Shown here: one piece after another, positions 12,109 to 32,388 of the stretch | Numbering within the stretch: position 1 is the first letter of the stretch | How the letters are laid out: every line of letters starts with the position of its first letter | Source of the DNA: Oscillospiraceae bacterium | Lineage (GTDB): Bacteria > Bacillota > Clostridia > Oscillospirales > SIG530 | Reading direction: 5' to 3' | DNA: 34,458 nucleotides | Assembly (NCBI GenBank): GCA_015067075.1 | Contig: SVND01000028.1 | Coordinates: 1-34,458 of the forward strand | Notes under the pieces: model-generated | What the model saw: only the letters and a program-made list of their open reading frames with translations | What the model was told of the DNA's origin: nothing | Databases searched by the model: none | Program-made: the position numbers and the translations under genes

Positions 12109-12121
12109 CCTGTCTCCTCCT

Positions 12122-14550: not shown

Positions 14551-14565
14551 TTTTATTACCTCACT

Positions 14566-14877
14566 TTATCCGCATACGGCAAAGACCTTAACGCCGTCCG
14601 TATTGCCTTCAAAATCAATATACAGCACCTCGTCGGGGGAGAAAAGCTCGTTTTCCGCAACGATAACAGCTGTTTCGCCTTTGTTCAGGGTGACCTGACG
14701 CTCCTCTGAGCCAAACATACGGAGCGTAGTGAGCCCGTCGCTTGTTTTCACGGCGATAAGCCTTGTAAACTCGTCAAATTCCTTAAGCTCCATTCCGTTT
14801 TCGCCGTCGGCATCACATATTTCGCAAAGCGTTACCGCGTCATATCCCAAATAAATTATGGGGATACTTTTTCTCAT
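14566..14877 (-). CDS. Small phage head-region protein of unknown function (103 aa)
   Basis: This gene lies directly behind the major capsid gene, 12 bp away, with GAGGTG as ribosome site. The protein is acidic and beta-rich ('IIYLGYDAVTLCEICDADGENGMELKEFDEF', 'VTLNKGETAVIVAENELFSPDEVLYIDFEG'). Position would suit a capsid decoration or head-stabilising protein, but no family was recognised. Confidence 0.6.
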   Translation of the reverse strand: MRKSIPIIYLGYDAVTLCEICDADGENGMELKEFDEFTRLIAVKTSDGLTTLRMFGSEERQVTLNKGETAVIVAENELFSPDEVLYIDFEGNTDGVKVFAVCG

Positions 14878-14889
14878 CCGATCACCTCA

Positions 14890-15762
14890 TCAGATAAGTG
14901 CTTCGGGACGGGCAACGGTAAGAAGACCGATGGAGTCGGGCTTGACTATCTTTGCTCCGTAAAGGTGAAGACCCTTTACAGCATCGGCAAAGCGCTTTTC
15001 AGGTCTGTATGCCTCGACTTCTGTGATCTGCTCGGCGTAGGCAATGCTGTTTTCATAGCCTGCCATTACCTTGTAACACAAGGTGTCGTCTGCGCCCGTA
15101 ACCGTAGCGACGTTGTTGGAGGTGTAGATATCGAAGCCTGCCGCCTTGCCTACAAGACCGCAGGAAAGAGCGTTGTCGCTCATAGCTGTGCCTGCGGCGA
15201 CGAAGCGTTCATCCTTGAGCAAAAGTCCGATGTACCATGCAGGCACGACTACCCATCTTCCGTTTTTCGGCACGTTTGCCTCGGAAAGCTTAACGCTCAA
15301 GGAAACGAGCGCCTCGTATGCATCGCCGACGGCCGTGAACTTTTTTGGCGCATCGTCTGTACCGATGGTATTTGTGATGCTTTCATCGCTGTAGAGATTG
15401 GCGATATATTTGTCTGCAACGTCGGCAAGACCGTAAGCTGCCTCGCGCATTGCGGCATCCATAAGCTTGGGAGTCTGCTGTGCGGCGTCGATGTCGTCGA
15501 TCTGGAAGTTGAAATATTTTCCCTGATCGATAATGAGTGTCTTCTGCGCGTCCGTCAGCGTTTCGGGCGCGCCGATATCTGTGTTTTTCGTGTAATCGCC
15601 GATGGTTATTCTGCCGATACCGTTAATGTGCACTCTGTCGCCGAAGGCACGGATATCACCTGTGTACGCCTTGTTGCAAACGGAGGCAAAAACGTGAGTT
15701 TTGTTGAGATTTTCGAGCAAACGTGCGCTCCATATCTGAGGAATAAAATTATCAATTGCCAT
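14890..15762 (-). CDS. Phage major capsid protein (P22/gp5-like, HK97 fold)
   Basis: The 290-residue protein opens 'MAIDNFIPQIWSARLLENLNKTHVFASVCNKAY', contains 'GDRVHINGIGRITIGDYTKNTDI' and 'YFNFQIDDIDAAQ', and later 'RWVVVPAWYIGLLLKDERFV', all features of the clostridial prophage coat proteins related to P22 gp5. Length is normal for this group. It follows the scaffold gene by 18 bp, the usual order. The gene is intact. Confidence 0.9.
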   Translation of the reverse strand: MAIDNFIPQIWSARLLENLNKTHVFASVCNKAYTGDIRAFGDRVHINGIGRITIGDYTKNTDIGAPETLTDAQKTLIIDQGKYFNFQIDDIDAAQQTPKLMDAAMREAAYGLADVADKYIANLYSDESITNTIGTDDAPKKFTAVGDAYEALVSLSVKLSEANVPKNGRWVVVPAWYIGLLLKDERFVAAGTAMSDNALSCGLVGKAAGFDIYTSNNVATVTGADDTLCYKVMAGYENSIAYAEQITEVEAYRPEKRFADAVKGLHLYGAKIVKPDSIGLLTVARPEALI

Positions 15763-15780
15763 ATAAATATCTCCTTTTTA

Positions 15781-16245
15781 TCAGTAAAGTTCTTTGTTGG
15801 AAAGCGCTTTTGAAACGGCTTCCCAATTGCTGTTTATCCAAGTAGGATCGTTTTTATTTTCGCCGAAGCTTTCCTTTGTCATTTGCGGCTGTGTCTGACG
15901 TGACGACATGGGCGCCGTGCCTGTCAGACGGGAATCTTCGCAAAAGAGGAAGGGCTTATCCTGGCGAAGCTTTGCTATCTGCTCCGTAACGCCGCATACC
16001 TTCGTGCCGTCAACGGTGATACAGCTTTTGTCGAGCATGGCTTTTACCATGTCGCTGTCGTGTACCGCGCCGCGAAGCTGTGCATCTATTTCCATTTCCA
16101 CGGCAATATCGTGAAGCCGGGCAAGAGCTGCCTGACGTGTTACGTATCGCTGTTCAACGGCGCAGTTTATCTGCTCGCCCAGCTCCTGTGTAAGCTCTGT
16201 GCCGTTTGCCTCAAAAATTTCTTTAAGCCATTCCATTGCTTTCAT
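15781..16245 (-). CDS. Phage scaffolding protein (GP20-like), short form
   Basis: The C-terminal two-thirds show the GP20 scaffold pattern: 'DAQLRGAVHDSDMVKAMLDKSCITVDGTKVCGVTEQIAKLRQDKPFLF', where 'D..AV..ML' and 'G..EQI..L....P.LF' are typical. At 154 residues it is shorter than the usual 180-200, with a reduced N-terminal coiled coil. It overlaps the portal gene by 23 bp. It would guide capsid assembly inside the prohead. The start could also be the in-frame ATG three codons later. Confidence 0.72.
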   Translation of the reverse strand: MKAMEWLKEIFEANGTELTQELGEQINCAVEQRYVTRQAALARLHDIAVEMEIDAQLRGAVHDSDMVKAMLDKSCITVDGTKVCGVTEQIAKLRQDKPFLFCEDSRLTGTAPMSSRQTQPQMTKESFGENKNDPTWINSNWEAVSKALSNKELY

Positions 16246-17635
16246 CGTCCTTTCCTGCTGAGATCTCCGACTTTTTTGCAGTCATTTCCTTTTCAGCATC
16301 CGTTACCCACGGATGGTTTGCGATTATGGTCTTTTCGGAAATCATGCCAGCGCTCTGCTTGCAAGCATCGATAATGTCCTTTTCATTGACGAGCATATCG
16401 CAGTTGAAGATAAATTCCACGCGGCTACCGAAAAGGCTTTTGCCTGTGCGAATAGCAATATCGCTGAATATGAACCAAACAAGCTTGTCCAGCGAAGCGG
16501 AGATCTCGTTTGCAAAGTTGTTGCAGTCAAGCTCCAGGTCGGAATAAATAAAGCGCATTGCAATGCCTGACGGCGCGTTGCCGACGGTCTGCCCCATGGT
16601 GTCAACGCCACGTCCGTTTTTAATAATAGCGGCGCGAAGCATTTTCTCCGCCGTTTCATAAACGGCAGGGTCTACCTTGACCGACAGCGTTTCAACGCCG
16701 CCGTCATCGCATACCTTTACTGCACCGTAAGTGCAAAGATTACGCCTGAATTCGCCTAAGTCCTGACCGTCGTAATTGCGGAGCACGAGAATACTGCTTC
16801 GCGGGTCCTCCTCAATGGCGTTCATCATGTCCGATAAGATCTTGTCATATGCATCGTTGAGGCTTTTGATGGACGAGGTGAGCGTTTTTTCATTCTGATT
16901 ATACTTTATGGGTATAAAGGGAATGATGTCCCACGTCATCTCCGTATCGCCCTTGCGGAAGTGACCGCTTTCAAAGCCTGCTTCAATGTCGGGCAAAAAT
17001 TCGCCGCCGACCTGTATAAACCTGCGCACACCCTCGTGTGTGTAAAACTCCGCTCTGACCAGCACCTGATTTGCGCCGTTTTCATAAACGTCAGTTTCAT
17101 AAACGCGGAGCACTCCGTCAAGCTCCGTATGAGCATCGTCTGCCCAAAAGGGGATCACCTGCTCGGACGGGATAAGCTTTAAACAAAGCTTTCCGTCGTC
17201 GCTGTAATATACGTTCAGCCACGCAATTCCCTTGATTATTGCTTCTGTCCCTGCATTTCGAAGCAAATTCCACATTTTCGTGTCAAAATAACCCTCCAAT
17301 AATTCGGAGACCGATGCATCGTCGCTTTTTATGGAAGGCGTTTTTGAAAGCAAATAGGCTGTTTTCTGGTCAGCTAAAAGCTTTGTAAAATTGCTTTTGC
17401 ATCGATTGTTCGGCACGTTGTCGATCGCTGTTTTAATGCCGTTTTCACCGATGACCTGACGCACGCGGCGTGTAATGTCGCTGTCGCCTGCATAATAGCG
17501 GCTGCCCTCCGCCATTTCTGCCAGCTTTTTCGACGTACGCCATGCGTCGTATTCCGCTTTCAAAAAGCTCGACTGACCGAGATTTTCCGTTCGCGATAAG
17601 GCGATATTCGCCCATATCCTTTCGGTTTCAGTCAT
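16223..17635 (-). CDS. Phage portal protein (SPP1 gp6-like)
   Basis: The 470-residue protein has the SPP1-type portal landmarks: 'YYAGDSDI' near residue 48, 'NNRCKSNFTKLLADQKTAYLL', 'IIPFIPIKYNQNEKTLTSSIKSLNDAYDKILSDMMN' and 'GNAPSGIAMRFIYSDLELDCNNFA' in the clip and stem region. It forms the dodecameric channel for DNA packaging. AAAGGAG precedes the ATG by seven bases. It is the first gene of the block. Terminase genes, which normally lie directly upstream, are missing and replaced by a hairpin RNA element and repeats. The MuF-like minor head protein usually found after the portal is also missing. Confidence 0.92.
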   Translation of the reverse strand: MTETERIWANIALSRTENLGQSSFLKAEYDAWRTSKKLAEMAEGSRYYAGDSDITRRVRQVIGENGIKTAIDNVPNNRCKSNFTKLLADQKTAYLLSKTPSIKSDDASVSELLEGYFDTKMWNLLRNAGTEAIIKGIAWLNVYYSDDGKLCLKLIPSEQVIPFWADDAHTELDGVLRVYETDVYENGANQVLVRAEFYTHEGVRRFIQVGGEFLPDIEAGFESGHFRKGDTEMTWDIIPFIPIKYNQNEKTLTSSIKSLNDAYDKILSDMMNAIEEDPRSSILVLRNYDGQDLGEFRRNLCTYGAVKVCDDGGVETLSVKVDPAVYETAEKMLRAAIIKNGRGVDTMGQTVGNAPSGIAMRFIYSDLELDCNNFANEISASLDKLVWFIFSDIAIRTGKSLFGSRVEFIFNCDMLVNEKDIIDACKQSAGMISEKTIIANHPWVTDAEKEMTAKKSEISAGKDDESNGMA

Positions 17636-19504: not shown

Positions 19505-19744
19505 ATGAAAATTACCGTATGTATCGGAAGTGCGTGTCACCTTAAGGGGTCGGGAAGAGTTGTTGACGCTCTTCACAGACTTATCGCTGAAAACGGCGTC
19601 GGCGACAAGGTTGAGCTCGGCGGTGCTTTTTGCACGGGCAACTGCCAGCAGGGCGTTTGCGTAACCATCGGAGAGCAGGTCTTTTCTGTGACTGATGAAA
19701 CGGCAGAGGAGTTTTTCAAAACACAGGTTCTTGCAAATTTATAA
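19505..19744 (+). CDS. Thioredoxin-fold [2Fe-2S] protein (NuoE-like domain, stand-alone)
   Basis: The 79-residue protein consists only of the thioredoxin-like [2Fe-2S] ferredoxin domain found in NuoE/HydA-associated subunits. Cys6 and Cys11 in 'CIGSACHLKGS' plus Cys43 and Cys47 in 'FCTGNCQQG' give the C-x4-C...C-x3-C pattern, and Cys52 is an extra. GGGAGGAAAG precedes the ATG. It lies 184 bp upstream of the dehydrogenase-fumarase-Hdr-fumarate reductase operon. It may serve as a soluble electron carrier or partner of the Flx module, but this is context only. No NuoF or HydB-like partner is in the window. Confidence 0.85.
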   Translation: MKITVCIGSACHLKGSGRVVDALHRLIAENGVGDKVELGGAFCTGNCQQGVCVTIGEQVFSVTDETAEEFFKTQVLANL

Positions 19745-19821: not shown

Positions 19822-19851
19822 TTTGCAAAAATCCGAAAAGAGTAGTATAAT
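19822..19851 (+). promoter_or_regulatory. Promoter of the malate-to-succinate operon
   Basis: TTTGCA (19822-19827), 18 bp, TATAAT (19846-19851), 77 bp before the dehydrogenase ATG. A 9-bp inverted repeat (CTTTTCGGA at 19783-19791 and TCCGAAAAG at 19832-19840) has its second arm inside the promoter spacer, a suitable place for a repressor or looped control. Confidence 0.6.
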
Positions 19852-19928: not shown

Positions 19929-20873
19929 ATGAACAAGATTACAATCATCGGAACCGGAAGCGTAGGTTCCACCATCGCTTACACTCTTACAATTTCTTCT
20001 CTTGCCTCCGAGATCGTTATGATCGACATCAACGGCGAGAAGGCAATGGGCGAAGCTCTTGATATACGTCAGGGTACACCCTTTACAAATTCCTGCAACA
20101 TCTATGCTGGCAGTTATGCAGATGCAGTAGGCTCTGACATCGTTATTCTTACATCCGGTGTTGCAAGAAAGCCCGGTCAGACAAGACTTGATCTTGCTCA
20201 GATAAACGTAAACATCACAAAGAGCATCATCCCCGAAATTACAAAGTATGCACCTGACGCAACTTATATCATCGTAAGCAATCCCGTTGATATTCTTACA
20301 TATACATTCTGCAAGTATTCAGGACTTCCCCAGTCCCGCATTATCGGTTCCGGTACGTTGCTTGACACGGCTCGTCTTCGTTCAAGACTTTCCGAGTACT
20401 ATTCCATCAACCAGCAGAACGTACATGCATATGTTTTCGGTGAACACGGCGATTCTGCTTTCGTTCCCTGGTCCTTTGCAAACATTTCCAACGTCCCCAT
20501 CGACGAGTATCACGATTCCGTTCTCAAGGCTGACAAGATATATCCCGAGCTCAAAAAGGATGAGGTTGAGGAATACGTTCGCAAGTCCGGTGCCCGCGTT
20601 ATCCAGAGAAAGGGCGCAACGTTCTATGCAGTATCCGTTTCCGTTTGCCACCTTTGCAAGTGCCTTCTCAACGGTATTGACACAACTCTTACAGTTTCCA
20701 CAATGCTTAACGGCGAATACGGAATCAGTGACGTTTGCTTGAGCCTTCTCAACATCGTAGGCCGCGAAGGTGCACACAGTAAGATACTTCTTCCTCTTAA
20801 CGATGAAGAGCTCGTTGCTCTTAACAAGAGCGCTGACACTCTCAAGCAGATCATCAACGGTATTGAATGGTAA
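19929..20873 (+). CDS. L-lactate/malate dehydrogenase family protein, malate-type specificity residue
   Basis: This is an NAD-dependent 2-hydroxyacid dehydrogenase of the LDH/MDH superfamily, 314 residues. 'GTGSVGS' (8-14) binds NAD and Asp33 the adenosine ribose. Catalytic His173 lies in 'GEHGDS', with Asp146 and Arg149 in 'LDTARLR' and Arg86 in the mobile loop. The loop reads 'ARKPGQTRLDL': the residue equivalent to LDH Gln102 is Arg80. In this superfamily Gln there gives lactate dehydrogenase and Arg gives malate dehydrogenase, although the later 'KGATFY' segment is LDH-like. Automatic annotation would say L-lactate dehydrogenase. Its position 39 bp before fumarase in a fumarate-reducing operon favours oxaloacetate reduction to malate. 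AAAAGGAG precedes the ATG. Confidence 0.9.
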   Translation: MNKITIIGTGSVGSTIAYTLTISSLASEIVMIDINGEKAMGEALDIRQGTPFTNSCNIYAGSYADAVGSDIVILTSGVARKPGQTRLDLAQINVNITKSIIPEITKYAPDATYIIVSNPVDILTYTFCKYSGLPQSRIIGSGTLLDTARLRSRLSEYYSINQQNVHAYVFGEHGDSAFVPWSFANISNVPIDEYHDSVLKADKIYPELKKDEVEEYVRKSGARVIQRKGATFYAVSVSVCHLCKCLLNGIDTTLTVSTMLNGEYGISDVCLSLLNIVGREGAHSKILLPLNDEELVALNKSADTLKQIINGIEW

Positions 20874-20912: not shown

Positions 20913-22289
20913 ATGGAATATCGTATTGAACACGATTCTATGGGCGAAGTCAAGGTGCCTGCAGATAAGCTTTGGGGTGCACAGACAGAGCGCAGCCATG
21001 AGAATTTCGAGATCGGCGTAGGCATTGAAACCATGCCCGGTGAAATAATTCATGCGTTTGGTATTTTGAAAAAAGCGGCAGCTATCGCAAACGGAGCTCT
21101 TCGCCCCGAAAAGATGACTCAGGCAAAGCTTGATGCTATTTCTCAGGCTTGTGACGAGGTCATCAGCGGTAAGCTTTGCGAGCATTTCCCCCTCGTAGTA
21201 TGGCAGACAGGCTCGGGCACACAGTCCAACATGAACTCCAACGAGGTTATTGCAAACCGCGGCAATCAGATAGCGGGCGAGAAGATACTTCATCCCAACG
21301 ATGACGTAAACATGAGCCAGTCCTCCAACGATACGTTCCCCACGGCTATGCATATTGCCGCCGTGCTTATGATCGAGGATAAGCTTATCCCCGCCGCACA
21401 GACACTTATTGATACGTTTATCAGACTTGAAGCTGAAAACGAAGGCATCGTAAAGAGCGGACGTACTCATCTTCAGGATGCAACTCCCATCAAATTCAGC
21501 CAGGAGATCAGCGGCTGGCGTTCCAGCCTTGAGCGCGACGTTGAGCTTCTCAAGATCGCTGTAAAGCCTCTTTACGAGCTTGCTCTCGGCGGTACGGCTG
21601 TCGGTACGGGACTTAACGCTCCCAAGGGCTTTGCTGAAAAGGTCGCTGCTGAAGTTGCTGCTCTTACAGGTAAGCCGTTTATCACAGCGGAAAACAAGTT
21701 CCACGCTCTCACATCCAAGGATGAGCTTGTATTTGCCCACGGCGCTATCAAGGCACTTGCGGCAGATATGATGAAGATAGCAAACGACGTTCGTTGGCTT
21801 GCAAGCGGTCCCCGTGACGGTCTCGGCGAAATATTCATTCCCGAAAATGAGCCCGGCTCTTCTATCATGCCCGGCAAGGTAAACCCGACACAGTGCGAGG
21901 CTGTAACCATGGTTGCCGTTCAGGTAATGGGCAACGATGTTGCCGTAGGCATTGCCGCATCGCAGGGTAACTTTGAGCTTAACGTATTTATGCCCGTTTG
22001 CATCTATAACTTCCTTCAGTCGGGAAGACTTCTTGCTGAAGCTATCCTTTCCTTCAACAAGAACTGTGCAGTAGGCATCAAGGCAAATAAAGAAAAAATG
22101 CACCATAACCTTCACAATTCTCTCATGCTCGTCACAGCGCTCAATCCGTATATCGGATATGAAAACGCCGCGAAGACAGCGAAGAAGGCATTCCGTGATA
22201 ATATCTCCTTGAAGGAGGCTTGCGTCGAGCTTGGCTTCTTGACAGCAGAAAAGTTTGACGAGGTATTCCATCCGGAGCAAATGGTATAA
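20913..22289 (+). CDS. fumC: Class II fumarate hydratase
   Basis: FumC interconverts malate and fumarate without an iron-sulfur cluster. The 458-residue length is standard. The signature '[16 protein letters not shown]' lies near residues 315-330, with '[14 protein letters not shown]' and '[11 protein letters not shown]' and '[11 protein letters not shown]' forming the other active-site regions. The start is preceded by GTGAGG. It is the second gene of the operon, 14 bp before hdrB. Here it would supply fumarate for the downstream fumarate reductase. The iron-free class II type is unusual for a strict anaerobe, many of which use class I enzymes. Confidence 0.95.
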
Positions 22290-22303: not shown

Positions 22304-23092
22304 ATGAAAGTAAGCTATTTTCCGGGCTGTACCTTAAAAAATAAGGCGATCGACCTCGATAATTACGCTCGCTTGAGCGCCGAGGCTCTCGGAATTACTT
22401 TGGAAGAAATCGAAAATTGGCAATGCTGCGGCGGCGTATTTACCACATCCAAGGATGAGGTCGCAACGAAGCTGTCCTCCGTGCGCGCTCTTAAAGCGGC
22501 ACAGGATAAGGCTCAGCCCCTTGTAACAGTATGCTCCGCTTGCCACAACGTAATAAAACAGACGAACAGCGCAATGCAAAACGACGGCGAATTTGCAAGC
22601 AAGGTCAACCGTTATATGGCTGACGATCAGTATTACGGCGGTACAAGAGTATATCATTACCTTGAAATGCTTCGCGATCTCGTCGGTTTTGAAAACATAA
22701 AGGCAAAGGTCGTAAATCCTCTTACAGGTAAGAAGATCGGCGCATATTACGGCTGTCTGCTTCTCAGACCCAATACGGTCATGCAGATGGACGATCCTGA
22801 AAATCCCAGCATAATTGAGGACTTTATCCGCGCTATCGGCGCAGAGCCCGTCGTATATCCCTACCGTAACGAATGCTGCGGCGGATATATCGCAATGGAG
22901 AGCCCTGAATTTGCAAAGAAAAAGAGCAAAGCAGTTGTAAACAGCGCCGCAAAGGCAGGCTGTGACTGCATCGTTACGGCATGTCCCCTTTGCAAGTACA
23001 ACCTTGTAAAGAATACGTCCGACGTGCCCGTAATATATTTCACAGAGCTGCTTGCGCAGGCTCTCGGAGTAAAGGAGGATACAAATGAGTAA
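22304..23092 (+). CDS. hdrB: HdrB-like subunit with two CCG domains
   Basis: HdrB of heterodisulfide reductase carries two CX(31-39)CCX(33-34)CXXC (CCG) motifs that bind noncubane [4Fe-4S] clusters. Both are complete: Cys9, Cys41-Cys42, Cys77, Cys80 and Cys151, Cys191-Cys192, Cys227, Cys230. The 262-residue protein is close to methanogen HdrB (about 290). It would hold the high-potential end of the electron path. In a bacterium without coenzyme M/B a heterodisulfide is not expected, and the neighbouring fumarate reductase is the probable acceptor. GGAGG precedes the ATG; the 3' end overlaps hdrC by 8 bp. Confidence 0.93.
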   Translation: MKVSYFPGCTLKNKAIDLDNYARLSAEALGITLEEIENWQCCGGVFTTSKDEVATKLSSVRALKAAQDKAQPLVTVCSACHNVIKQTNSAMQNDGEFASKVNRYMADDQYYGGTRVYHYLEMLRDLVGFENIKAKVVNPLTGKKIGAYYGCLLLRPNTVMQMDDPENPSIIEDFIRAIGAEPVVYPYRNECCGGYIAMESPEFAKKKSKAVVNSAAKAGCDCIVTACPLCKYNLVKNTSDVPVIYFTELLAQALGVKEDTNE

Positions 23093-23477
23093 TAAAAATG
23101 AGTATCTTCGAGACGAGATAATCCGCATCAGCGGAGTAAACCCGAAAAAATGTATGCGTTGCGGTAAGTGCTCAGGTACGTGCCCCGCATATGATGAGAT
23201 GGAATATCATCCCCATCAGTTTGTATATATGGTTGAAACGGGCGATATTGAACCGCTTCTCAATTCACAGTCCCTTTATAAATGTCTTTCCTGCTTTGCC
23301 TGCGTTGACAGATGCCCCAGAGGCGTCGAGCCCGCAAAGGTCGTCGAGGCGGTACGCCTTATGGCTATACGCAAGCAGGGTGCAAACCATATGACTGCAA
23401 ATGACGTTCCCGAAAAGCTTGATGACGATATGCCACAGCAGGCTATCGTAAGTGCATTCAGAAAATATACGAAGTAA
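23085..23477 (+). CDS. hdrC: HdrC-like 4Fe-4S dicluster subunit
   Basis: The 130-residue protein has two classic [4Fe-4S] motifs: Cys23, Cys26, Cys29, Cys33 and Cys67, Cys70, Cys73, Cys77, each closed by CP. It links HdrA to HdrB. It is shorter than methanogen HdrC (about 185). GGAGG lies 6-8 bases before the ATG, within the end of hdrB. No membrane segment is visible, so this is the soluble (HdrABC) type. Confidence 0.92.
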   Translation: MSNKNEYLRDEIIRISGVNPKKCMRCGKCSGTCPAYDEMEYHPHQFVYMVETGDIEPLLNSQSLYKCLSCFACVDRCPRGVEPAKVVEAVRLMAIRKQGANHMTANDVPEKLDDDMPQQAIVSAFRKYTK

Positions 23478-23492
23478 GGAGGAGAGGACAGA

Positions 23493-25487
23493 ATGCAAAG
23501 AATAGGTGTTTTTGTATGTTGGTGCGGAAGCAATATCGCAGGTACCGTTGACGTACACGCTGTCGCTGAAGCTTTAAAGCTTGAGCCGGGCGTAGTCTTC
23601 TCCATCGACTATCAGTATATGTGCTCCCAGGCGGGACAAAACATAATCAAGGAAGCTATCGCCGAGCATAAGCTTACAGGTATCGTCGTATGCTCCTGCT
23701 CGCCGCGTATGCACGAGGCTACGTTCAGAAAAACTGCTCAGGCGGCAGGCATCAACCCCTACATGGTTGAGATCGCAAACATCCGTGAGCAGTGCTCTTG
23801 GGTACATAAGGAAATGCCCATCGGTACAGAGAAGGCTATCATCCTCGGTAAAGCCGCGATCGCTAAGGTAAACCTTAACGCGCCCCTTACTCCCGGTGAA
23901 TCTCCCGTAACAAAGCGTGCGCTCGTTATCGGCGGCGGTATCGCAGGTATCCAGACGGCGCTTGACATTGCAGACGCAGGCTTTGAGGTAGATATCGTTG
24001 AGAAAAAGCCCACCATCGGCGGTAAAATGGCTCAGATAGATAAGACGTTCCCCACCCTTGACTGTGCCGCTTGTATCCTTACACCGAAGATGGTTGACGT
24101 TGCTCAGAATGAAAAGATCCGCATCTTCTCTTACAGCGAAGTAACGCAGGTAAAGGGATTTGTAGGTAATTTTGACGTAACTATTAAAAAGAATGCCCGC
24201 TATGTAAAGGAAGACCTTTGCACAGGCTGCGGCGCTTGCGTTGAAAAATGTCCGCAGAAGAAAGTACCCAACGAGTTCAATCTCGGCATGGATAACCGCC
24301 GTGCAATATACATTCCCTTTGCACAGGCTGTACCCAAGGTCGCTACTATCGACCCCAACGCTTGCAATATGCTTAAAAACGGCAAGTGCGGCGTATGCTC
24401 CAAGGTATGCGCGGCAGGTGCTATCGATTATACACAGAAGGATGAATTTATCGAAGAGAAATACGGCGCTATCGTCGTTGCAACGGGCTTTAATCCCATC
24501 AGCATGGATAAATTCGATGAATTTGCATACAGCCAGTCTAAGGACGTTATCACATCCTTGGAGTTTGAGCGTCTTACGAATGCGGCAGGTCCTACAGCAG
24601 GTAAGCTCCTTCGTCCCTCCGACGGAAAGCATCCTCACACCATCGTATTCGTACAGTGCGTAGGCTCCCGTTGCTCATCATGCGCTGAAAAGGGCAAGGA
24701 ATATTGCTCCAAGATCTGCTGCATGTACACAGCGAAGCACGCAATGCTCACAAGAGATAAATATCCCGACACAGAAGTATACGTATTCTATATCGACGTA
24801 AGAACACCGGGCAAGAGCTTTGACGAGTTCCAGCGCCGCGCAGTTGAGGAATACGGCGTACATTACATCAAGGGTATGGTCGGTAAGGTCGCACCTGAAG
24901 GCGATAAGCTCATGGTACATGCTTCCGATATGCTTGCAAACAAGCAGCTTCATATTGAAGCGGACCTTGTCGTTCTTGCCGCGGCTATCGAGCCAGACAA
25001 GTCTGCAAGACCCTTGGCAACCATGCTCACAGCCAGCATGGATACAAACGATTTCTTTACAGAAGCTCATCCCAAGCTTCGTCCCGTAGAAAGCCCAACA
25101 GCAGGTGTATTCCTTTCCGGCGCATGCCAGGGTCCCAAGGATATTCCCGAAACAGTATCTCAGGCAAGTGCCGCCGCCGCAAAGGTTATCGGCTTGCTTG
25201 CTAAGGATAAGCTGACGGGTAACCCGTGTATCGCTCATTCTGATGAAATGATGTGTAACGGCTGTTCCTCCTGCGAAAGAGTTTGCCCCTACGGTGCTAT
25301 CACATATCAGGATAAAGAGTTCCGCATGCCCAACAGAACGACGGCTATCCGCCGCGTAGCTTCTGTAAATCCTGCAGTATGCCAGGGCTGCGGCGCATGT
25401 ACGGTTGCTTGCCCGTCAGGTGCTATGGACCTTCGCGGCTTTGCAACTAAACAGATCATTGCGGAGGTGGATGCAATATGCAAGTAA
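23493..25487 (+). CDS. hdrA: HdrA-like flavoprotein, electron-bifurcating candidate
   Basis: HdrA carries the FAD that bifurcates electrons in Hdr-Mvh and Hdr-Flx complexes. The 664-residue protein is full length: an N-terminal cysteine-containing domain (1-130, Cys9, Cys11, Cys54), the FAD motif 'VIGGGIAGIQTALDIADAG' (145-163), 'GGKMAQIDKTFPTLDCAACILTPKM' (186-210), a dicluster insertion near 230-310 ('CTGCGACVEKCPQK' and 'CGVCSKVCAAGA'), and two C-terminal [4Fe-4S] motifs ('CNGCSSCERVCPYGAI' near 590 and 'CQGCGACTVACPSGAM' near 632). It overlaps mvhD by 10 bp. In the Hdr-Flx complex its FAD receives electrons from the NADH-oxidising Flx unit through MvhD/FlxD. Confidence 0.94.
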   Translation: MQRIGVFVCWCGSNIAGTVDVHAVAEALKLEPGVVFSIDYQYMCSQAGQNIIKEAIAEHKLTGIVVCSCSPRMHEATFRKTAQAAGINPYMVEIANIREQCSWVHKEMPIGTEKAIILGKAAIAKVNLNAPLTPGESPVTKRALVIGGGIAGIQTALDIADAGFEVDIVEKKPTIGGKMAQIDKTFPTLDCAACILTPKMVDVAQNEKIRIFSYSEVTQVKGFVGNFDVTIKKNARYVKEDLCTGCGACVEKCPQKKVPNEFNLGMDNRRAIYIPFAQAVPKVATIDPNACNMLKNGKCGVCSKVCAAGAIDYTQKDEFIEEKYGAIVVATGFNPISMDKFDEFAYSQSKDVITSLEFERLTNAAGPTAGKLLRPSDGKHPHTIVFVQCVGSRCSSCAEKGKEYCSKICCMYTAKHAMLTRDKYPDTEVYVFYIDVRTPGKSFDEFQRRAVEEYGVHYIKGMVGKVAPEGDKLMVHASDMLANKQLHIEADLVVLAAAIEPDKSARPLATMLTASMDTNDFFTEAHPKLRPVESPTAGVFLSGACQGPKDIPETVSQASAAAAKVIGLLAKDKLTGNPCIAHSDEMMCNGCSSCERVCPYGAITYQDKEFRMPNRTTAIRRVASVNPAVCQGCGACTVACPSGAMDLRGFATKQIIAEVDAICK

Positions 25488-25912
25488 ATGAACATAAGCC
25501 TTTGATAGTAGCATTTTGCTGTAACTGGTGCTCTTACGCAGGTGCTGACCTTGCGGGTAACAACCGTTTGGCATATCCTGCCGACGTAAAGATCATCCGT
25601 GTACCTTGCTCCTGCCGTGTAAATCCCATGTTCGTGCTTCGCGCATTCCAGCGCGGCGCTGACGGCGTTATCATCTGCGGCTGCCATCCCGGCGATTGCC
25701 ACTATACATCGGGTAACTATTTCACACGCCGCCGTATGGCTTTGCTTTTCTCGATGCTTGATTATCTCGGCATAGAGAAGGAGCGTACACGCGTTGAGTG
25801 GGTATCCGCGGCTGAAGGTGCAAAATTTGCCGCAACGATGAACGACTTTGCTGAGAAGGTCGCTTCTCTCGGTGAAAACAAGAGATTGGAGGATCTGAGA
25901 TGCAAAAAATAA
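25478..25912 (+). CDS. mvhD: MvhD/FlxD-type iron-sulfur adaptor
   Basis: The 144-residue protein belongs to the MvhD [2Fe-2S] family that joins an electron-donating unit (MvhAG, FdhAB or FlxABC) to HdrA. Landmarks are 'FCCNWCSYAGADLAG' with Cys14, Cys15, Cys18, 'RVPCSC' with Cys44 and Cys46, and 'GCHPGDCHYTSGN' with Cys69 and Cys74. GGAGG lies before the ATG inside hdrA. It overlaps the next gene by 13 bp. No hydrogenase (MvhAG) is present, and the following FlxA-like gene points to NAD(P)H as donor. Confidence 0.92.
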   Translation: MQVNEHKPLIVAFCCNWCSYAGADLAGNNRLAYPADVKIIRVPCSCRVNPMFVLRAFQRGADGVIICGCHPGDCHYTSGNYFTRRRMALLFSMLDYLGIEKERTRVEWVSAAEGAKFAATMNDFAEKVASLGENKRLEDLRCKK

Positions 25913-26901
25913 CTCGTAACGCTTTGGTCGAAAAGGCTGTAGCCATGCTTAATGACGGCGCTGTAAGCCGTGTACTCGGTTGGCGTGCAGGCGAATTCGG
26001 CTACGATATAACACCCTCCGTTTTTACGGAAGCAAAGGATATTGAGGAGAATTTCGTCTGGAATGATTTTTGCGGCGCAAACTTCTCCAAATATCTTGTA
26101 GCACAGACAAGAAAGGGCGAGGGCAAGATCCTTGTTTTCCTCAAGCCCTGCGATACATACAGCTTCAATCAGCTTCTTACAGAGCATCGTTTTGACCGTG
26201 AAAAGGTCTACGTTGTCGGCATTCCCTGCGAGGGCATGGTTGATATCGCAAAGGTCAAAAAGCTTTGCGGCGACGGTATCAGCGCAATCGAATGCGGCGA
26301 GGACAGCCTTGCTGTAACGACAATATATGAGGATGCACCTATAGCTGTATCCACAAAGGATGTTTTAGCTGAGCGCTGCCTTAGCTGTAAGAGCAAAAAG
26401 CACGTTGCTTACGACGAGCTTTTGGGCGAGGAGGGCGAAGTGCTCGACTCTAACCGTTTTGATGAAGTAGAAAAGCTTGAAAAGATGACTGCCGACGAAA
26501 GATTTGAGTTCTGGCAGAGCCAGCTTTCCAAGTGCATCCGTTGCAACGCTTGCCGTGATATATGCCCGGCTTGCACCTGCGAAAAGTGCGTATTTGACAA
26601 CCCCAATTCCGGAGCTGAAAATAAAGCACCTGCAACGAGCTTTGAAGAAAAGATGTTCCACATCATCCGCGCGTTCCACGTTGCGGGCAGATGTACGGAC
26701 TGCGGCGAATGCTCTCGCGTATGTCCGCAGGATATACCGCTTCACCTGCTTAACCGTAAGTTTATCAAGGATATCGACGCATTCTACGGCGATTATCAGG
26801 CAGGCGAGGAGGTTGGCTCAAGAGCACCTCTCGTAAACTACACGAAGGAAGACCTTGAACCGTCCGAAGTATTTGAAAGGGGTGACGGCGCAAATGCGTA
26901 A
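25900..26901 (+). CDS. FlxB-like iron-sulfur protein with FrhB-type domain
   Basis: The 333-residue protein starts with an FrhB/FdhB-like region ('VFLKPCDTYSFNQLL', 'VYVVGIPCEGMVD', then Cys160 and Cys163 in 'RCLSCKSKKHV'), followed by two [4Fe-4S] motifs: Cys212, 215, 218, 222 with a Cys-rich tail (Cys225, 227, 230) and Cys265, 268, 271, 275. This layout matches iron-sulfur subunits of FlxABCD-HdrABC complexes and related formate dehydrogenase beta chains. It probably carries electrons between the FAD/NAD(P) subunit and MvhD. It overlaps both neighbours in frame-shifted ATG/stop contexts, which suggests translational coupling and equal stoichiometry. Confidence 0.8.
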   Translation: MQKITRNALVEKAVAMLNDGAVSRVLGWRAGEFGYDITPSVFTEAKDIEENFVWNDFCGANFSKYLVAQTRKGEGKILVFLKPCDTYSFNQLLTEHRFDREKVYVVGIPCEGMVDIAKVKKLCGDGISAIECGEDSLAVTTIYEDAPIAVSTKDVLAERCLSCKSKKHVAYDELLGEEGEVLDSNRFDEVEKLEKMTADERFEFWQSQLSKCIRCNACRDICPACTCEKCVFDNPNSGAENKAPATSFEEKMFHIIRAFHVAGRCTDCGECSRVCPQDIPLHLLNRKFIKDIDAFYGDYQAGEEVGSRAPLVNYTKEDLEPSEVFERGDGANA

Positions 26902-27919
26902 GTGTTCTTTAACAGCTCTCGACAGTATTTTTGAAACTATTGCAAAGTCTGCCGTTTTGTATCTCCCCGTTGATACTGAGGAGAACAAGTCTGAATATAA
27001 GATGTGGGAGAAGGGCGCTAAATGGAGCGACCGTCTCAACACAAACAAAAGCCCTAAGGATTTCTTCTTCCCGCAGGTTGAGGATCTGATGAAATTCAAG
27101 GTAACGGGCAAGAATATCGAGCTTACGGATATCCGTAAAGCTGCTGAGGATTTCGTAGTTTTCGGCGTTCGCGCTTGCGACGTAAAAAGCTTCGATGTGC
27201 TTGACCGCGTTTTCCTTACAACACCTACCGACAGCTATTATGCTTCCCGCCGCGAGCACGGTGTAATAATCTCCGTCGCTTGCACAAGACCCACGGAAAC
27301 GTGCTTCTGCCAGACCTTCGGCATTGATGCTACAGAGCCTCAGGGCGATATCATGGTCTGGAAGACGGAAAGCGAGCTTTTCTGGAAGGCTGTAACGGAA
27401 AAGGGCGAAAAGATAATGAGCCTTATTGAGTCCATGACAGAGCAGTGCACAGAAGAGGCTGTCGAGGCTCAGAAGGCGAAGACGAAAGCTATAATGAAAA
27501 AGCTTCCCCTTGCAAACCTTAAGGCAGACGCCTTCGGCGCAGGAAAAACAGATGAATTTTTCAATGCACCCGAATGGGCGGAGCTTTCTCAGTCATGCCT
27601 TGGTTGCGGCACGTGCACCTTCGTATGCCCCACCTGCCAATGCTATGATATCAAAGATTTCAATACAGGAAACGGCGTAGTGCGTTTCCGTTGCTGGGAC
27701 TCCTGCATGTACTCCGACTTCACGAAAATGTCGGCAGGCCAGCCTCGTTTGACGCAGGTTGAGCGCTTCCGCCAGAGATTTATGCATAAGCTCGTTTACT
27801 ATCCTGAGAATAACGAGGGAATGTTCGGCTGTGTAGGTTGCGGAAGATGTCTTGCCAAGTGCCCCATTTCAATGAATATAGTTAAAGTAATGAAAGCGAT
27901 CGGAGGAAAAGCAGAATGA
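26894..27919 (+). CDS. FlxC/AsrA-like iron-sulfur protein
   Basis: The start is ATG 26894, overlapping the previous stop by 8 bp, with AAAGGGG upstream; the open frame to 26855 is an extension without a start signal. The 341-residue protein resembles anaerobic sulfite reductase subunit A: 'VVFGVRACDVKSFDVLDRVF', 'YYASRREHGVIISVACTRPTETCFCQ' (Cys130, 137, 139), then [4Fe-4S] motifs at Cys235, 238, 241, 245 and Cys313, 316, 319, 323. AsrA-like subunits pair with AsrB-like FAD/NAD(P) subunits, and the next gene is exactly that. No sulfite reductase catalytic subunit (AsrC) follows, which argues against a sulfite role. It ends with a 4-bp ATGA overlap. Confidence 0.82.
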   Translation: MRKCSLTALDSIFETIAKSAVLYLPVDTEENKSEYKMWEKGAKWSDRLNTNKSPKDFFFPQVEDLMKFKVTGKNIELTDIRKAAEDFVVFGVRACDVKSFDVLDRVFLTTPTDSYYASRREHGVIISVACTRPTETCFCQTFGIDATEPQGDIMVWKTESELFWKAVTEKGEKIMSLIESMTEQCTEEAVEAQKAKTKAIMKKLPLANLKADAFGAGKTDEFFNAPEWAELSQSCLGCGTCTFVCPTCQCYDIKDFNTGNGVVRFRCWDSCMYSDFTKMSAGQPRLTQVERFRQRFMHKLVYYPENNEGMFGCVGCGRCLAKCPISMNIVKVMKAIGGKAE

Positions 27920-28749
27920 ACGGACACACAGAACCCCTGATTCCGAAGATCGGTGTTATAACCGATATACGTATAGACACACCTGACGTAAAAACCTTCA
28001 GAGTTGTCACTTTGGACGGAGAAAAGCCCTTTGACCATATGCCCGGTCAGTGTGCAATGCTCTCCATCCCCGGCGTAGGCGAAGCAATGTTCTCCATAAC
28101 TTGCTCCCCCACAAATACAGAATATATGGAATTTTCCATTAAAAAGTGCGGATGCGTCACCGAATGGCTCCATCAGGCAGAGGTCGGTCAGCAGGTAACT
28201 ATCCGTGGACCTTACGGCAATCCCTTCCCCGTAGATACGGAATTTGCGGGTAAGAATTTGCTCTTCATCGCAGGCGGTATCGCTATTGCACCCCTTCGCT
28301 CCGTAATCAACTATTGCCGTCATTATAAAGACCGCTACGGTAAGATAGATATTATCTACGGCGCTCGCTCCAAGGATGACCTTGTTGATTACAACGAGAT
28401 AATCACCGAATGGGTAAACGACGAGGGCGTTGACGTACACCTTACCATCGACCGCGAGCAGGAGGGCTGGGACGGCCACGTAGGCTTCGTACCCAACTAC
28501 GTTAAGGAGCTCGGCTTTGATACGAACAGAACGGCTATCCTTTGCGGACCTCCCATAATGATCAAGTTTACTCTTGCAGGCTTGCAGGAGCTTGGCTTTG
28601 GCAAGGAGCAGATTTATACAACGCTTGAAATGCGCATGAAATGCGGTATCGGCAAATGCGGCAGATGCAACGTCGGCTCGAAGTACATCTGCAAGGACGG
28701 CCCCGTATTCCGTTTTGATGAGCTTGACGAATTACCGGATGAGTATTGA
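27916..28749 (+). CDS. FlxA/AsrB-like FAD/NAD(P)-binding oxidoreductase
   Basis: This ferredoxin-reductase-type protein is the expected NAD(P)H entry point. Residues 10-110 form the FAD beta-barrel ('PGQCAMLSIPG', 'SIKKCGCVTEWLHQ', 'IRGPYGNPF'). Residues 113-235 form the NAD(P) fold ('LLFIAGGIAIAPLRSVINYC', 'IIYGARSKDDLVDYNEI', 'AILCGPPIMIKFTLAGLQELG'). Cys243, 248, 251, 259 form the PyrK/AsrB-type [2Fe-2S] site. The 277-residue length is normal. NADH versus NADPH cannot be decided by eye. Together with the two preceding genes and mvhD it forms an FlxABCD-like donor module for HdrABC. Confidence 0.88.
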   Translation: MNGHTEPLIPKIGVITDIRIDTPDVKTFRVVTLDGEKPFDHMPGQCAMLSIPGVGEAMFSITCSPTNTEYMEFSIKKCGCVTEWLHQAEVGQQVTIRGPYGNPFPVDTEFAGKNLLFIAGGIAIAPLRSVINYCRHYKDRYGKIDIIYGARSKDDLVDYNEIITEWVNDEGVDVHLTIDREQEGWDGHVGFVPNYVKELGFDTNRTAILCGPPIMIKFTLAGLQELGFGKEQIYTTLEMRMKCGIGKCGRCNVGSKYICKDGPVFRFDELDELPDEY

Positions 28750-28767: not shown

Positions 28768-29442
28768 ATGGAAAATATGGTAAACATTTTTCTGTTCGGA
28801 AAGAAGTATCAGGTTCCGGACAATTTAACGATAATGTGCGCGATGGAATATGCTGGCTATCAGCTTGTCCGCGGTTGCGGCTGCCGTAACGGATTTTGCG
28901 GCGCTTGCGCAACTATCTATCGCATAAAGGGCGACAAGGAGCTTAAGAGCTGTCTTGCTTGCCAGACAAAGGTTGAGGACAATATGTATATTGCTACTCT
29001 TCCGTTCTTCCCGCTTGTAAAGCAGGTATACGACATAAACAAGGTCAAGGTAACTGAGCAGATAATGATGCAGCTCTATCCCGAGATCTATGCTTGCATC
29101 GGCTGCAACGCTTGCACAAAGAGCTGCACGCAGGAGCTTAACGTAATGCAGTACATCGCATACGCACAGCGCGGCGACTTTGAGAAGTGCGCTGAAGAGT
29201 CCTTCGACTGCGTAATGTGCGGAGTTTGCTCCAGCCGTTGCCCCGCAGGTATCTCTCATCCGCAGGTAGCAATGCTTGCTCGCAGAATCAACGGCAAGTA
29301 TCTTGCACCCAAGTGCGATCATCTTGAAAACCGTGTTCAGGAGATCAAGGACGGTACGTTCGTTGAGCTTATTGAGGCTCTTATGCAAAAGCCCATTGAC
29401 GAGATCAAAGAGCTTTACAACAACCGTGAGATCGAGAAATAA
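28768..29442 (+). CDS. frdB: Fumarate reductase iron-sulfur subunit (FrdB/TfrB-like)
   Basis: The 224-residue protein has an N-terminal [2Fe-2S] domain (Cys37, 39, 44, 47 in 'GCGCRNGFCGAC' and Cys62, 65) and two [4Fe-4S] motifs (Cys110, 113, 116, 120 and Cys148, 151, 154, 158). This resembles the front part of TfrB of methanogen thiol:fumarate reductase but without the CCG (HdrB-like) part, which here is supplied as a separate hdrB gene in the same operon. It is not a classical SdhB/FrdB, whose third cluster is [3Fe-4S]. It should pass electrons from the Hdr side to the flavoprotein. It lies 14 bp upstream of frdA. AGGAG precedes the ATG. Confidence 0.85.
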   Translation: MENMVNIFLFGKKYQVPDNLTIMCAMEYAGYQLVRGCGCRNGFCGACATIYRIKGDKELKSCLACQTKVEDNMYIATLPFFPLVKQVYDINKVKVTEQIMMQLYPEIYACIGCNACTKSCTQELNVMQYIAYAQRGDFEKCAEESFDCVMCGVCSSRCPAGISHPQVAMLARRINGKYLAPKCDHLENRVQEIKDGTFVELIEALMQKPIDEIKELYNNREIEK

Positions 29443-29456
29443 GGAGGGCGCTTTAA

Positions 29457-31061
29457 ATGTATTCTGAGAAATTTCAAAAATCTTTAAAGGCTGTCGAAGC
29501 AGCAAGAGAAAAGAATATCGCTTTGGAGCCTGCCCGTATGACGGCACAGCAGAAGGAAGACCTTCTTGCGGCATACCATCCCGACTATAAGCAGGATCAG
29601 TTTGAGGTCCTTAAGATAGGTCCGAACAAGGGTGAAAAGGTTCCCCGCGAGCTTGCTGCAATGCTTCAGGCACACAGCCGTATCACTGCTGACTGCGTAG
29701 ACCTTGAAAATCCCGACTATGACGTTGACGTTCTCGTTATCGGCGGCGGCGGCGCAGGCTCATCTGCGGCGATCGAAGCTCACGAAGCAGGCGCAAACGT
29801 AATGATGGTCACAAAGCTTCGCATTGGCGACGCTAACACAATGATGGCTGAAGGCGGCATTCAGGCTGCCGATAAGCCCAACGATTCTCCCGCTATCCAC
29901 TTTGTAGATGCTTTCGGCGGCGGACATTTCGCGGCAAAGAAGGAGCTTCTTGCAAAGCTTGTTAACGAAGCACCTGAAGGCATTCAGTGGCTCAGCGATC
30001 TCGGCGTTGAATTTGACAAGGACGCTGAGGGCACAATGATAACGACTCACGGCGGCGGAACATCCCGCAAGCGTATGCACGCGGCAAAGGACTATTCCGG
30101 CGCAGAAATTATGAGAACGCTTCGCGACGAGGTTCTCAACCGTCAGATCCCCGTAGTAGATTTCACATCTGCTATCGAGCTTATCCTTGACGAAAACGGC
30201 AACGCTGCAGGCGCAGTTTTGATGAACATGGAAACGAAGGAGCTGCTCGTTGCTAAGGCAAAGACAGTCATCATCGCAACAGGCGGTGCAGGCCGTATGC
30301 ATTATCAGGGCTTTCCCACATCCAACCATTACGGCGCAACGGCTGACGGCCTTGTCCTTGGCTACCGCGTAGGCGCAAAGCTTCTTTACGCCGATACACT
30401 TCAGTACCATCCTACGGGTGCGGCATATCCCGAACAGATCTTCGGCGCACTTGTTACGGAAAAGGTTCGCTCTCTCGGTGCAAAGCTTATCAACGTAAAC
30501 GGCGAAGCATTTATGCATCCCCTTGAGACCCGTGACGTTTCCGCGGCATCCATTATCCGCGAATGCAGCACGAGAGGCAACGGCGTTGAAACGGGAAGCG
30601 GCTATGCAGTATGGCTTGACACACCGATGATCGAAAAGATCGGCGGCGAAGGCACTATCGAAAAGCGTATCCCCGCTATGATGCGTATGTTCGGCAAATA
30701 CGGTATCGATATCCGTAAAGAGCCCATCCTCGTTTATCCCACGCTTCACTATCAGAACGGCGGTCTTGATATTACTCCCGACTGCATGACAACGAACGTA
30801 AACAACCTGTTCGTTGCAGGCGAAGCTGTCGGCGGTATCCACGGAAGAAACCGTCTTATGGGTAACTCCTTGCTTGACATCATCGTATTCGGACGCAGTG
30901 CAGGTAAGAGCGCGGCGGCTAAGTGCAAGGATGTAACGGTAGGCAAGCTTACTCTCGATCACATTGCCGCATTTGAAAAGGAAATTTCCGATGCAGGCAT
31001 TGAAACTGAAGCCGTATCTCCCAAGCTTCTTCCCGATTATACCCGCAAGGTAAATGAATGA
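29457..31061 (+). CDS. frdA: Fumarate reductase/succinate dehydrogenase flavoprotein, soluble type
   Basis: The 534-residue flavoprotein reduces fumarate to succinate. About 87 residues of unknown role precede the FAD motif 'DVDVLVIGGGGAGSSAA'. The active-site residues of the family are present: 'QYHPTG' (His318), 'TRDVSAASI' (Arg359), 'HYQNGGL' (His431) and 'GRNRLMGNSLLD' (Arg466). The His that binds FAD covalently in E. coli FrdA ('SHTVAAEGG') is Asn127 here ('ANTMMAEGG'), so FAD should be non-covalent, as in soluble fumarate reductases and L-aspartate oxidases. A NadB role is unlikely given FrdB next to it and the retained substrate residues. No membrane anchor (FrdC/D) follows. GGAGG lies before the ATG. 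Confidence 0.9.
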   Translation: MYSEKFQKSLKAVEAAREKNIALEPARMTAQQKEDLLAAYHPDYKQDQFEVLKIGPNKGEKVPRELAAMLQAHSRITADCVDLENPDYDVDVLVIGGGGAGSSAAIEAHEAGANVMMVTKLRIGDANTMMAEGGIQAADKPNDSPAIHFVDAFGGGHFAAKKELLAKLVNEAPEGIQWLSDLGVEFDKDAEGTMITTHGGGTSRKRMHAAKDYSGAEIMRTLRDEVLNRQIPVVDFTSAIELILDENGNAAGAVLMNMETKELLVAKAKTVIIATGGAGRMHYQGFPTSNHYGATADGLVLGYRVGAKLLYADTLQYHPTGAAYPEQIFGALVTEKVRSLGAKLINVNGEAFMHPLETRDVSAASIIRECSTRGNGVETGSGYAVWLDTPMIEKIGGEGTIEKRIPAMMRMFGKYGIDIRKEPILVYPTLHYQNGGLDITPDCMTTNVNNLFVAGEAVGGIHGRNRLMGNSLLDIIVFGRSAGKSAAAKCKDVTVGKLTLDHIAAFEKEISDAGIETEAVSPKLLPDYTRKVNE

Positions 31062-31079: not shown

Positions 31080-32342
31080 ATGAGTTTGTTTAACGGCGTA
31101 ATCTCGATCAGCAACATTTCAACATTGCTGTTCGTAGTATTTGCAGTTCTTCTTCTGGGCTATGCCCTCGGAAGAATCACGATAAAAGGCGTATCCTTAG
31201 GCGACGCGGGCGTATTTATCATCGCCCTCATCGCAGGCGCGCTTTGCTTCAGCGTAAACGATGCAGGTCAGCTTCTTTTCAGCGCATCCGCAAAGCCTTA
31301 TGACTTTTCAAGCGGACTCAGCCTTGTTGAAAGCCTCGGACTTGTCCTTTTCGTAACGTCCGTCGGCTTTATCGCAGGCCCGAAATTTTTCGGCAACTTC
31401 AAAAGAAACTTCAAATCCTACGTTCTTCTCGGCCTTGTAATCATTTTGGCAGGCGGACTTTCCGCCGCCGCTTGCATCGGCATGGGTGAGATCGTCGGCT
31501 ACGGCGCATCCATTAAGGAGCAGGACGGATTTGTAGCAATGATCGTCGGACTTCTTTCAGGCTCACTTACATCGACTCCCGCATTTTCTGCCGCAAAAGC
31601 GACGGTAGCGGAGCAGTACACATCTCTCGTTTCCGTTGGACACGGTATTGCGTACATTTTCGGTGTTATCGGCGTTGTTCTTTTCGTTCAGCTTATCCCC
31701 AAGCTCACAAAAGCTAATATGGACGAGGAAAGAGCAAAGCTCGTTGTCAAGGAAGAGGAAACGAAAAAGAAATTCACAGGAAAGCTTTTTGATATCGACC
31801 ATATGGGTATCGCGGCATTTTCTCTCGCCGCTATCCTCGGTACGTTTATCGGTCAGATAAAGATACCTCTTTCCTCTGCAGGACTCAGCGGAACGTGCTT
31901 CTCCCTTACAACTACAGGCGGATGCCTTCTTGTAAGCCTTATTCTCGGACATTTCTCCAGAATCGGAAGCGTAAACATCATGCCGCAGGCAAGCACACTC
32001 AAGCTTTTCAGAGAGCTTGGACTTGTTTTGTTCCTTGTCGGCGCAGGTATCCCGGGCGGTGCGGAATTTGTTGTAAACTTTGACCCGATCTACTTCGTAT
32101 ACGGCATCGTAATGACGATATTCCCCATGGTAGTCGGTTATATCTTCGCAAAATACGTACTCAAGCTGAGCCTTCTCAACAACCTCGGCTCACTTACAGG
32201 CGGTATGACAAGTACACCTGCCCTCGGCACGCTTATCGGCACGGCAGGCACGGAGGATGTTGCCGCAGCATATGCCGCAACGTATCCCATAGCGCTTATC
32301 GCTGTCGTTCTGGTATCGCAGTTCCTTATCATATTGTTCTAA
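31080..32342 (+). CDS. AspT/SucE-family (AAE) transporter, likely dicarboxylate or succinate exporter
   Basis: The 420-residue membrane protein has about ten transmembrane helices in two halves, each with the family signature loop: 'LLSGSLTSTPAFSAAK' near residue 165 and 'LTGGMTSTPALG' near 385. It belongs to the aspartate:alanine exchanger (AAE) family, whose members include AspT and the succinate exporter SucE of Corynebacterium. The usual central TrkA-C/RCK-like domains are missing; only a charged cytoplasmic loop (about 215-245) joins the halves. Last in the fumarate-to-succinate operon, 18 bp after frdA, it most likely exports succinate or exchanges it for fumarate, malate or aspartate. 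AAAGGAG precedes the ATG. Confidence 0.85.
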   Translation: MSLFNGVISISNISTLLFVVFAVLLLGYALGRITIKGVSLGDAGVFIIALIAGALCFSVNDAGQLLFSASAKPYDFSSGLSLVESLGLVLFVTSVGFIAGPKFFGNFKRNFKSYVLLGLVIILAGGLSAAACIGMGEIVGYGASIKEQDGFVAMIVGLLSGSLTSTPAFSAAKATVAEQYTSLVSVGHGIAYIFGVIGVVLFVQLIPKLTKANMDEERAKLVVKEEETKKKFTGKLFDIDHMGIAAFSLAAILGTFIGQIKIPLSSAGLSGTCFSLTTTGGCLLVSLILGHFSRIGSVNIMPQASTLKLFRELGLVLFLVGAGIPGGAEFVVNFDPIYFVYGIVMTIFPMVVGYIFAKYVLKLSLLNNLGSLTGGMTSTPALGTLIGTAGTEDVAAAYAATYPIALIAVVLVSQFLIILF

Positions 32343-32346
32343 ATAT

Positions 32347-32388
32347 ATATGGCGTTGTATCCCAAAGGATATGACGCCATATTTTTTG
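32347..32388 (+). terminator. Operon terminator
   Basis: ATATGGCGT (32347-32355) and TATCC (32358-32362) pair with GGATA (32367-32371) and ACGCCATAT (32374-32382), followed by a run of T residues. It ends the roughly 12.5-kb transcript. Confidence 0.85.

Follow-up and report, generated by a model that had tools for sequence, protein, structure and literature searches.

A putative LDH-like malate dehydrogenase, labelled as lactate dehydrogenase, at the head of a probable succinate operon in gut Clostridia

Gene content of the locus

The window, meaning the whole stretch of 34,458 nucleotides that was analysed (contig SVND01000028.1 of an Oscillospiraceae bacterium), carries an operon on the forward strand. 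Its genes, from the window malate dehydrogenase (MDH) gene through the AspT/YidE-type exchanger, are joined by short gaps or overlaps. The following features were located.

19823..19851, +: promoter-like TTGCAA-17-TATAAT match ahead of the leading operon gene (consensus scan; match only)
19929..20873, +: putative malate dehydrogenase of the LDH superfamily, L-LDH by models (profile matches, solved-structure alignment, residues)
20166..20168, +: AGA, which encodes specificity residue Arg80 (=Arg102); Arg in 91/91 orthologues
20913..22289, +: class II fumarase FumC, 458 aa (TIGR00979 712 bits, cut-off 665)
22304..23092, +: HdrB-like CCG-domain subunit (PF02754 above cut-off; TIGR03288 and NF042965 below)
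23085..23477, +: HdrC-like 4Fe-4S subunit (TIGR03290 68 bits)
23493..25487, +: HdrA-like bifurcating flavoprotein, 664 aa (NF040770 HdrA2 781 bits over positions 1-641)
25478..25912, +: MvhD/FlxD-like subunit (PF02662 186 bits; matched by the C-terminal portion of HdrA2)
25900..26901, +: FlxC-like 4Fe-4S subunit (from operon position and Fe-S matches)
26855..27919, +: FlxB-like (AsrA/sulfhydrogenase beta-like) Fe-S subunit (NF040829 178 bits, TIGR02910 134 bits)
27916..28749, +: FlxA-like FAD/NAD(P)H subunit (PRK08345 226 bits, AsrB 192 bits)
28768..29442, +: FrdB-like subunit with 2Fe-2S and 4Fe-4S (TfrB/dhsB/Fer2/Fer4 matches)
29457..31061, +: FrdA/TfrA-like fumarate reductase flavoprotein (best match NF004900 TfrA 342 bits, cut-off 718)
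31080..32342, +: AspT/YidE-family exchanger, probable dicarboxylate transporter, the substrate being inferred (PF06826 173 bits)
32347..32382, +: strong intrinsic-terminator-like hairpin of 16 pairs with T tract at the operon end (computed)

Subunit names in the Flx part were assigned by gene order together with matches below family cut-offs, and FrdA and the Hdr subunits likewise score under the cut-offs of the families after which they are named. The FrdA motifs QYHPTG and HGRNRLMGNSL align with E. coli FrdA and are kept as in fumarate reductases. The first-pass annotation had placed the dehydrogenase gene directly before fumarase in a succinate-forming operon; fumarase does start at 20913, 39 bp past the dehydrogenase stop codon, and the operon is larger than had been claimed.

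Directly upstream of the MDH gene, positions 19505-19744 (+) encode a small 2Fe-2S protein that resembles the C-terminal part of NuoE. No counterpart turned up beside the MDH gene at other loci, an unreliable negative because the query began one base out of frame. Elsewhere in the window, a phage structural cassette lies between bacterial genes at 11662-17635 (-), with portal, scaffold, major head protein, two head-tail adaptors, tail sheath and tail protein. An AraC-type regulator-like ORF (8871-9725) adjoins an ORF for a MtaA/CmuA/HemE-like methyltransferase (9846-10910, +), which scores far below all family cut-offs. The ORF at 32989-34458 (+), cut by the window end, begins like a signal peptide, contains PTPEPTATPVPT-type repeats and probably encodes a secreted protein.

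Diagnostic residues of the dehydrogenase

The ORF at 19929-20873 (+) encodes 314 aa and contains both Ldh_1 domains (N and C). The catalytic set of the LDH/MalDH superfamily is complete, with Arg109, Asp168, Arg171 and His195 all present (D146, R149 and H173 being catalytic in its own numbering). The second strand ends in MIDIN, Asp included, as expected for NAD use.

The specificity loop TSGVARKPGQTR carries Arg80 at LDH position 102. Positions 20160-20200 translate as VARKPGQTRLDLAQ, where Val78 starts at 20160, the loop VARKPGQTRL covers 20160-20189 and the codon of Arg86 (=Arg109) lies at 20184-20186. Upon alignment with solved LDHs (Bacillus selenitireducens AAQKPGETR, Thermotoga VPQKPGETR), Arg80 falls on Gln102, so that the first-pass claim of an Arg where LDH has Gln was borne out by both translation and alignment. 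Its further statement, that changing this Gln to Arg switches Bacillus LDH to oxaloacetate, agrees with the account of B. stearothermophilus Q102R in PMC4109310, which cites Wilks 1988 for a change from a 10^3-fold preference for pyruvate to a 10^4-fold preference for oxaloacetate. Canonical LDHs have Gln at this position and all known MDHs have Arg (PMC4109310).

The remaining positions give a mixed signature, as had also been proposed at first pass. Thr231, in the KGAT segment at residues 228-231, corresponds to the LDH-like Thr246; the other diagnostic residues are V235 (=250), A177 (=199), R151 (=173) and H166 (=188). Among orthologues, residue 250 is Val (Ile in 10/91) and residue 199 mostly Ser, Cys or Ala and so non-acidic, against Ile250 and Asp/Glu199 in canonical L-LDHs. 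The canonical L-LDH residue Gln102 is thus replaced by Arg, and of the type-3 malate dehydrogenase signature (R102, M199, A/S246, P250) only R102 is shared. Position 68 was dropped as a diagnostic, Ala being found there in many Gln102 LDHs of the sample as well.

Mixed residues of this type are those of the intermediate group of LDH-like MalDHs with R102/T246 signatures (Brochier-Armanet and Madern 2021, as related in PMC9486893). As the mixed signature is a hallmark of that group in this account, it is not peculiar to the window gene.

Conservation and gene neighbourhood

The sample consisted of 80 loci from GTDB genomes supplemented with extra matches from 98 relatives, and yielded an orthologue set of 91 sequences at 65% identity or more. 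Arg102, Thr246 and His188 were each found in 91/91 orthologues, as were Arg109, Asp168, Arg171 and His195, with Arg173 in 89. The comparison rows with Gln102 were more distant homologues from the relatives and the wider phylum; Gln102 occurred in 48 of the 99 rows of the tree described below, nearly all of them canonical LDHs. The presence of Arg102 is beyond chance, being invariant in the orthologues against Gln in canonical LDHs of the same sample. A sequencing error at the Arg80 codon was rejected in view of the 91/91 conservation, and a single-base error is unlikely in any case because the change from CAA or CAG to AGA takes at least two base changes.

The gene order is strongly conserved. 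FumC was the next gene in 80/90 testable loci and HdrB in three more, while fumarase was found next to Gln102 LDHs in none of 21 loci. Where at least 9.5 kb of downstream sequence was available, the full ten-gene set fumarase-HdrBCA-MvhD-FlxCBA-FrdBA followed in 42/46 loci. The operon with MDH as first gene is conserved in many uncultured gut Clostridia.

Co-occurrence was scored in the 98 relatives, counting genes of at least 59% identity as window-type. The operon FrdA was present in all 12 relatives carrying a window-type gene, which in turn was found in 12/13 genomes with this FrdA (Fisher p 1.6 x 10^-14 before correction for kinship, which inflates it). The sole FrdA genome lacking the window-type gene, G092, has Hdr-Flx-Frd with neither MDH nor FumC directly in front, and carries a different Arg102/Thr246 gene elsewhere (L020, of the 1y6j type). 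Two relatives, G049 and G081, carry a separate Gln102 LDH (L117 and L120) in addition to the operon gene. Tandem MDH paralogues, both with Arg102, were observed at L064:10001-12052 and L079:8844-10948; the second copy in L064 (59% identity) is immediately followed by HdrB, without an intervening fumarase.

Profile models and annotation

The NCBIfam L-LDH models scored above cut-off (NF000824 356 vs 339 bits, TIGR01771 335 vs 304) and the malate dehydrogenase models below it (PRK06223 280/283, TIGR01763 222/352). The best PDB sequence match was 1y6j, deposited as L-lactate dehydrogenase, and a fold search with an AlphaFold model (pLDDT 73.5, low at 174-230) returned LDHs as the nearest structures. 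Ranking by fold was dropped as evidence, since fold says nothing decisive on specificity; the model itself is of moderate quality.

The first-pass suspicion that automatic annotation is wrong on substrate is supported by the residue, the alignment, the tree, the synteny and the genome-wide co-occurrence. On these grounds the LDH label is to be read as a systematic misannotation of a predicted malate dehydrogenase. Profile models now label a whole clade of probable gut-bacterial malate dehydrogenases as lactate dehydrogenase, and metabolic models built on such annotation would predict lactate from organisms that probably make succinate, and would lack the step by which these turn oxaloacetate into malate.

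Phylogenetic placement

A maximum-likelihood tree of 99 sequences was made with positions 102, 199, 246 and 250 left out and was rooted on type-3 MalDH (R102/A246/P250); the A. fulgidus MalDH sequence in it matches PDB chain 2x0i end to end. The window gene fell in a clade of 21 rows with support 100/99, all Arg102/Thr246, and 1y6j with its kin formed a separate Arg102/Thr246 group (98/96). A weakly supported branch (66/25) set the canonical LDHs (55 rows, almost all Gln102) apart from both groups. A tree had been proposed in the first-pass annotation as a check; it establishes a clade of its own for the window gene, and the place of this clade outside the canonical LDHs holds in the best tree on that weak branch. 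There the clade lies between type-3 MalDH and the canonical LDHs, apparently where the known intermediate group belongs, the branch on the LDH side being weak.

Since the best tree puts the clade outside the canonical LDHs and in the intermediate zone, Arg102 is more likely to have been retained from MalDH-like ancestors than regained, as far as the weak branch allows. All sizeable Arg102/Thr246 groups lie outside the canonical Gln102 LDHs in this tree with its type-3 MalDH root, and retention requires fewer changes. A true LDH lineage in which Arg replaced Gln102 by reversion, so that nature repeated the switch engineered in 1988, appears unlikely. In its favour, the window clade is LDH-like at 246, 250, 173 and 188, the separating branch is weak, and isolated Arg102 rows (L188, L204, L187) nest among Gln102 LDHs.

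A further group in other Bacillota (L188, L190, L191, L160) combines Arg102/Thr246 with Glu199 and has a loop of the PRKPGQSRR type; its member L188, which nests close to Gln102 LDHs in the tree, may represent a true reversal from Gln to Arg. In some superfamily members position 102 is Ile, Val, Tyr, Pro or His (L184, L186, L129, L203, L135, L181, L134); these may have other 2-hydroxyacid specificities, which LDH models would catch too.

Two Arg102/Thr246 proteins with a solved structure differ from the window clade. A. fulgidus MalDH (2x0i), an example of the intermediate group, has Arg102 and Thr246 like the window gene and stands between type-3 MalDH and canonical LDH; it is an oxaloacetate-specific MDH, and a malate dehydrogenase role is likewise proposed for the window gene. 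It has Pro250 and Met199, whereas the window clade has Val/Ile250, Ser/Cys/Ala199 and the LDH-like Arg173 and His188, and is bacterial and operon-bound. The 1y6j protein shares Arg102, Thr246 and the overall fold, likewise bears an LDH label despite its Arg102, and has Ile250; it differs by its separate clade and Gln199, and its relatives adjoin rplT or other genes, not fumarase. No malic enzyme was found among the neighbours of 1y6j-type genes, rplT being there instead. The 1y6j structure is presumably of a Clostridium thermocellum protein, and the malate shunt of that organism reportedly has a characterised MDH; a literature search by locus tags and 1Y6J found no link between the two. The logic of residue 102 is already known and the operon-bound MDH clade is new: no description of an MDH clade of such residue make-up heading a succinate operon was found in open-access papers. 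The clade consists of natural enzymes at the LDH/MDH boundary.

Substrate preference

The window gene is read, with a probability of roughly 0.9, as encoding a NAD-dependent LDH-like malate dehydrogenase that functions in the succinate operon. Arg80 (Arg102) on the mobile loop would pair with the second carboxylate of oxaloacetate, and Arg171, Arg109, His195 and Asp168 would act as in all family members. The nearest published match found to its residue combination appears to be the P250I mutant of A. fulgidus MalDH (R102/T246/I250), with an efficiency of 1.3 x 10^5 per M per s on oxaloacetate, a raised Km of 1.3 mM and no detectable activity on pyruvate; the wild type (R102/T246/P250) reaches 4.3 x 10^6 per M per s, again with pyruvate not detectable (PMC9486893, Table 1). 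The common Arg102 combinations listed there for the intermediate group carry Pro250.

Dual use is the main rival, since some R102/T246 enzymes accept pyruvate too (a statement in PMC9486893 that cites Roche et al. 2019). Such an enzyme would turn over oxaloacetate and pyruvate at useful rates in a site opened by Thr246 and Val250; the LDH-like Thr246 is held to be unfavourable for oxaloacetate binding (PMC9486893). A genome with no other L-LDH candidate of the superfamily would profit from a secondary activity in lactate metabolism: no second LDH/MDH-superfamily gene was found in the own genome, which is 96% complete, so that an LDH may have been missed, and neither Ldh_2 nor malic enzyme was found in the same assembly. 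The undetectable pyruvate activity of both A. fulgidus enzymes, the separate Gln102 LDH kept by relatives and the linkage to fumarase instead of lactate genes speak against dual specificity, which is considered improbable. A genuine lactate dehydrogenase, as annotated, with Arg102 displaced or neutral, would fit the L-LDH model scores, the LDHs as nearest structures and the LDH-like T246, R173 and H188, but is very hard to reconcile with an invariant Arg102 of the kind found in all known MDHs, with fumarase adjoining in 80/90 loci and with a loop that, in contrast to apicomplexan LDH, has no insertion able to displace residue 102.

The malate dehydrogenase reading leaves room for a doubtful extension. 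Having kept the LDH anion-site residues Arg173/His188 and an LDH-like residue 250, the clade might be allosteric, in which case fructose 1,6-bisphosphate could control how much flux enters the bifurcating succinate pathway. Arg173 and His188 are also kept in some non-regulated LDHs and are necessary at most, not sufficient. Complete allosteric regulation is unreported for any intermediate-group MalDH (PMC9486893).

The probable succinate operon

The operon as a whole is read as quinone-independent and succinate-forming, and as probably electron-bifurcating. GTP-PEPCK, PYC_OADA and RnfC are present in the own genome, and no MenD above cut-off was found in it. In the proposed pathway, GTP-PEPCK would supply oxaloacetate, which the window enzyme would reduce to malate; FumC would dehydrate malate, and the resulting fumarate would be reduced to succinate by the FrdBA flavoprotein. 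A soluble Flx-Hdr complex would feed FrdBA, probably by oxidising NADH with electrons bifurcated to fumarate and ferredoxin, and Rnf would use the resulting ferredoxin. Sequence, conservation, place in the tree, operon and co-occurrence are observations; substrate preference, complex formation and bifurcation are all inferred; bifurcation by Flx-Hdr-Frd, taken alone, is somewhat favoured. A single operon would hold a quinone-independent route to succinate, which could be tested as one unit.

The closest known system is the 'succinate operon' of Pseudoclostridium thermosuccinogenes, for which it has been proposed that electrons from NADH are bifurcated to ferredoxin and fumarate (PMC7282089). 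Fumarase, seven Flx-Hdr genes, two fumarate reductase genes and a putative transporter occur in the same order in both, and both genomes have a GTP-PEPCK feed. As described, the P. thermosuccinogenes operon does not include an MDH, whereas the window operon begins with one and so has the set complete from oxaloacetate.

Methanogen thiol:fumarate reductase TfrAB is related through TfrA, the best family match of the window FrdA (below the TfrA cut-off), and through TfrB, whose profile hits the FrdB-, HdrC- and HdrB-like proteins; unlike in TfrAB, the window parts are separate genes accompanied by HdrA, MvhD and Flx subunits. Desulfovibrio FlxABCD-HdrABC has the same kinds of subunits (NADH-flavin, two Fe-S, MvhD-like and HdrA/B/C) and is joined to sulfur metabolism, whereas the window Flx-Hdr is joined to fumarate reductase. 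A related Flx-Hdr-TfrAB arrangement occurs in tubeworm symbionts and Chromatiaceae (PMC6315080).
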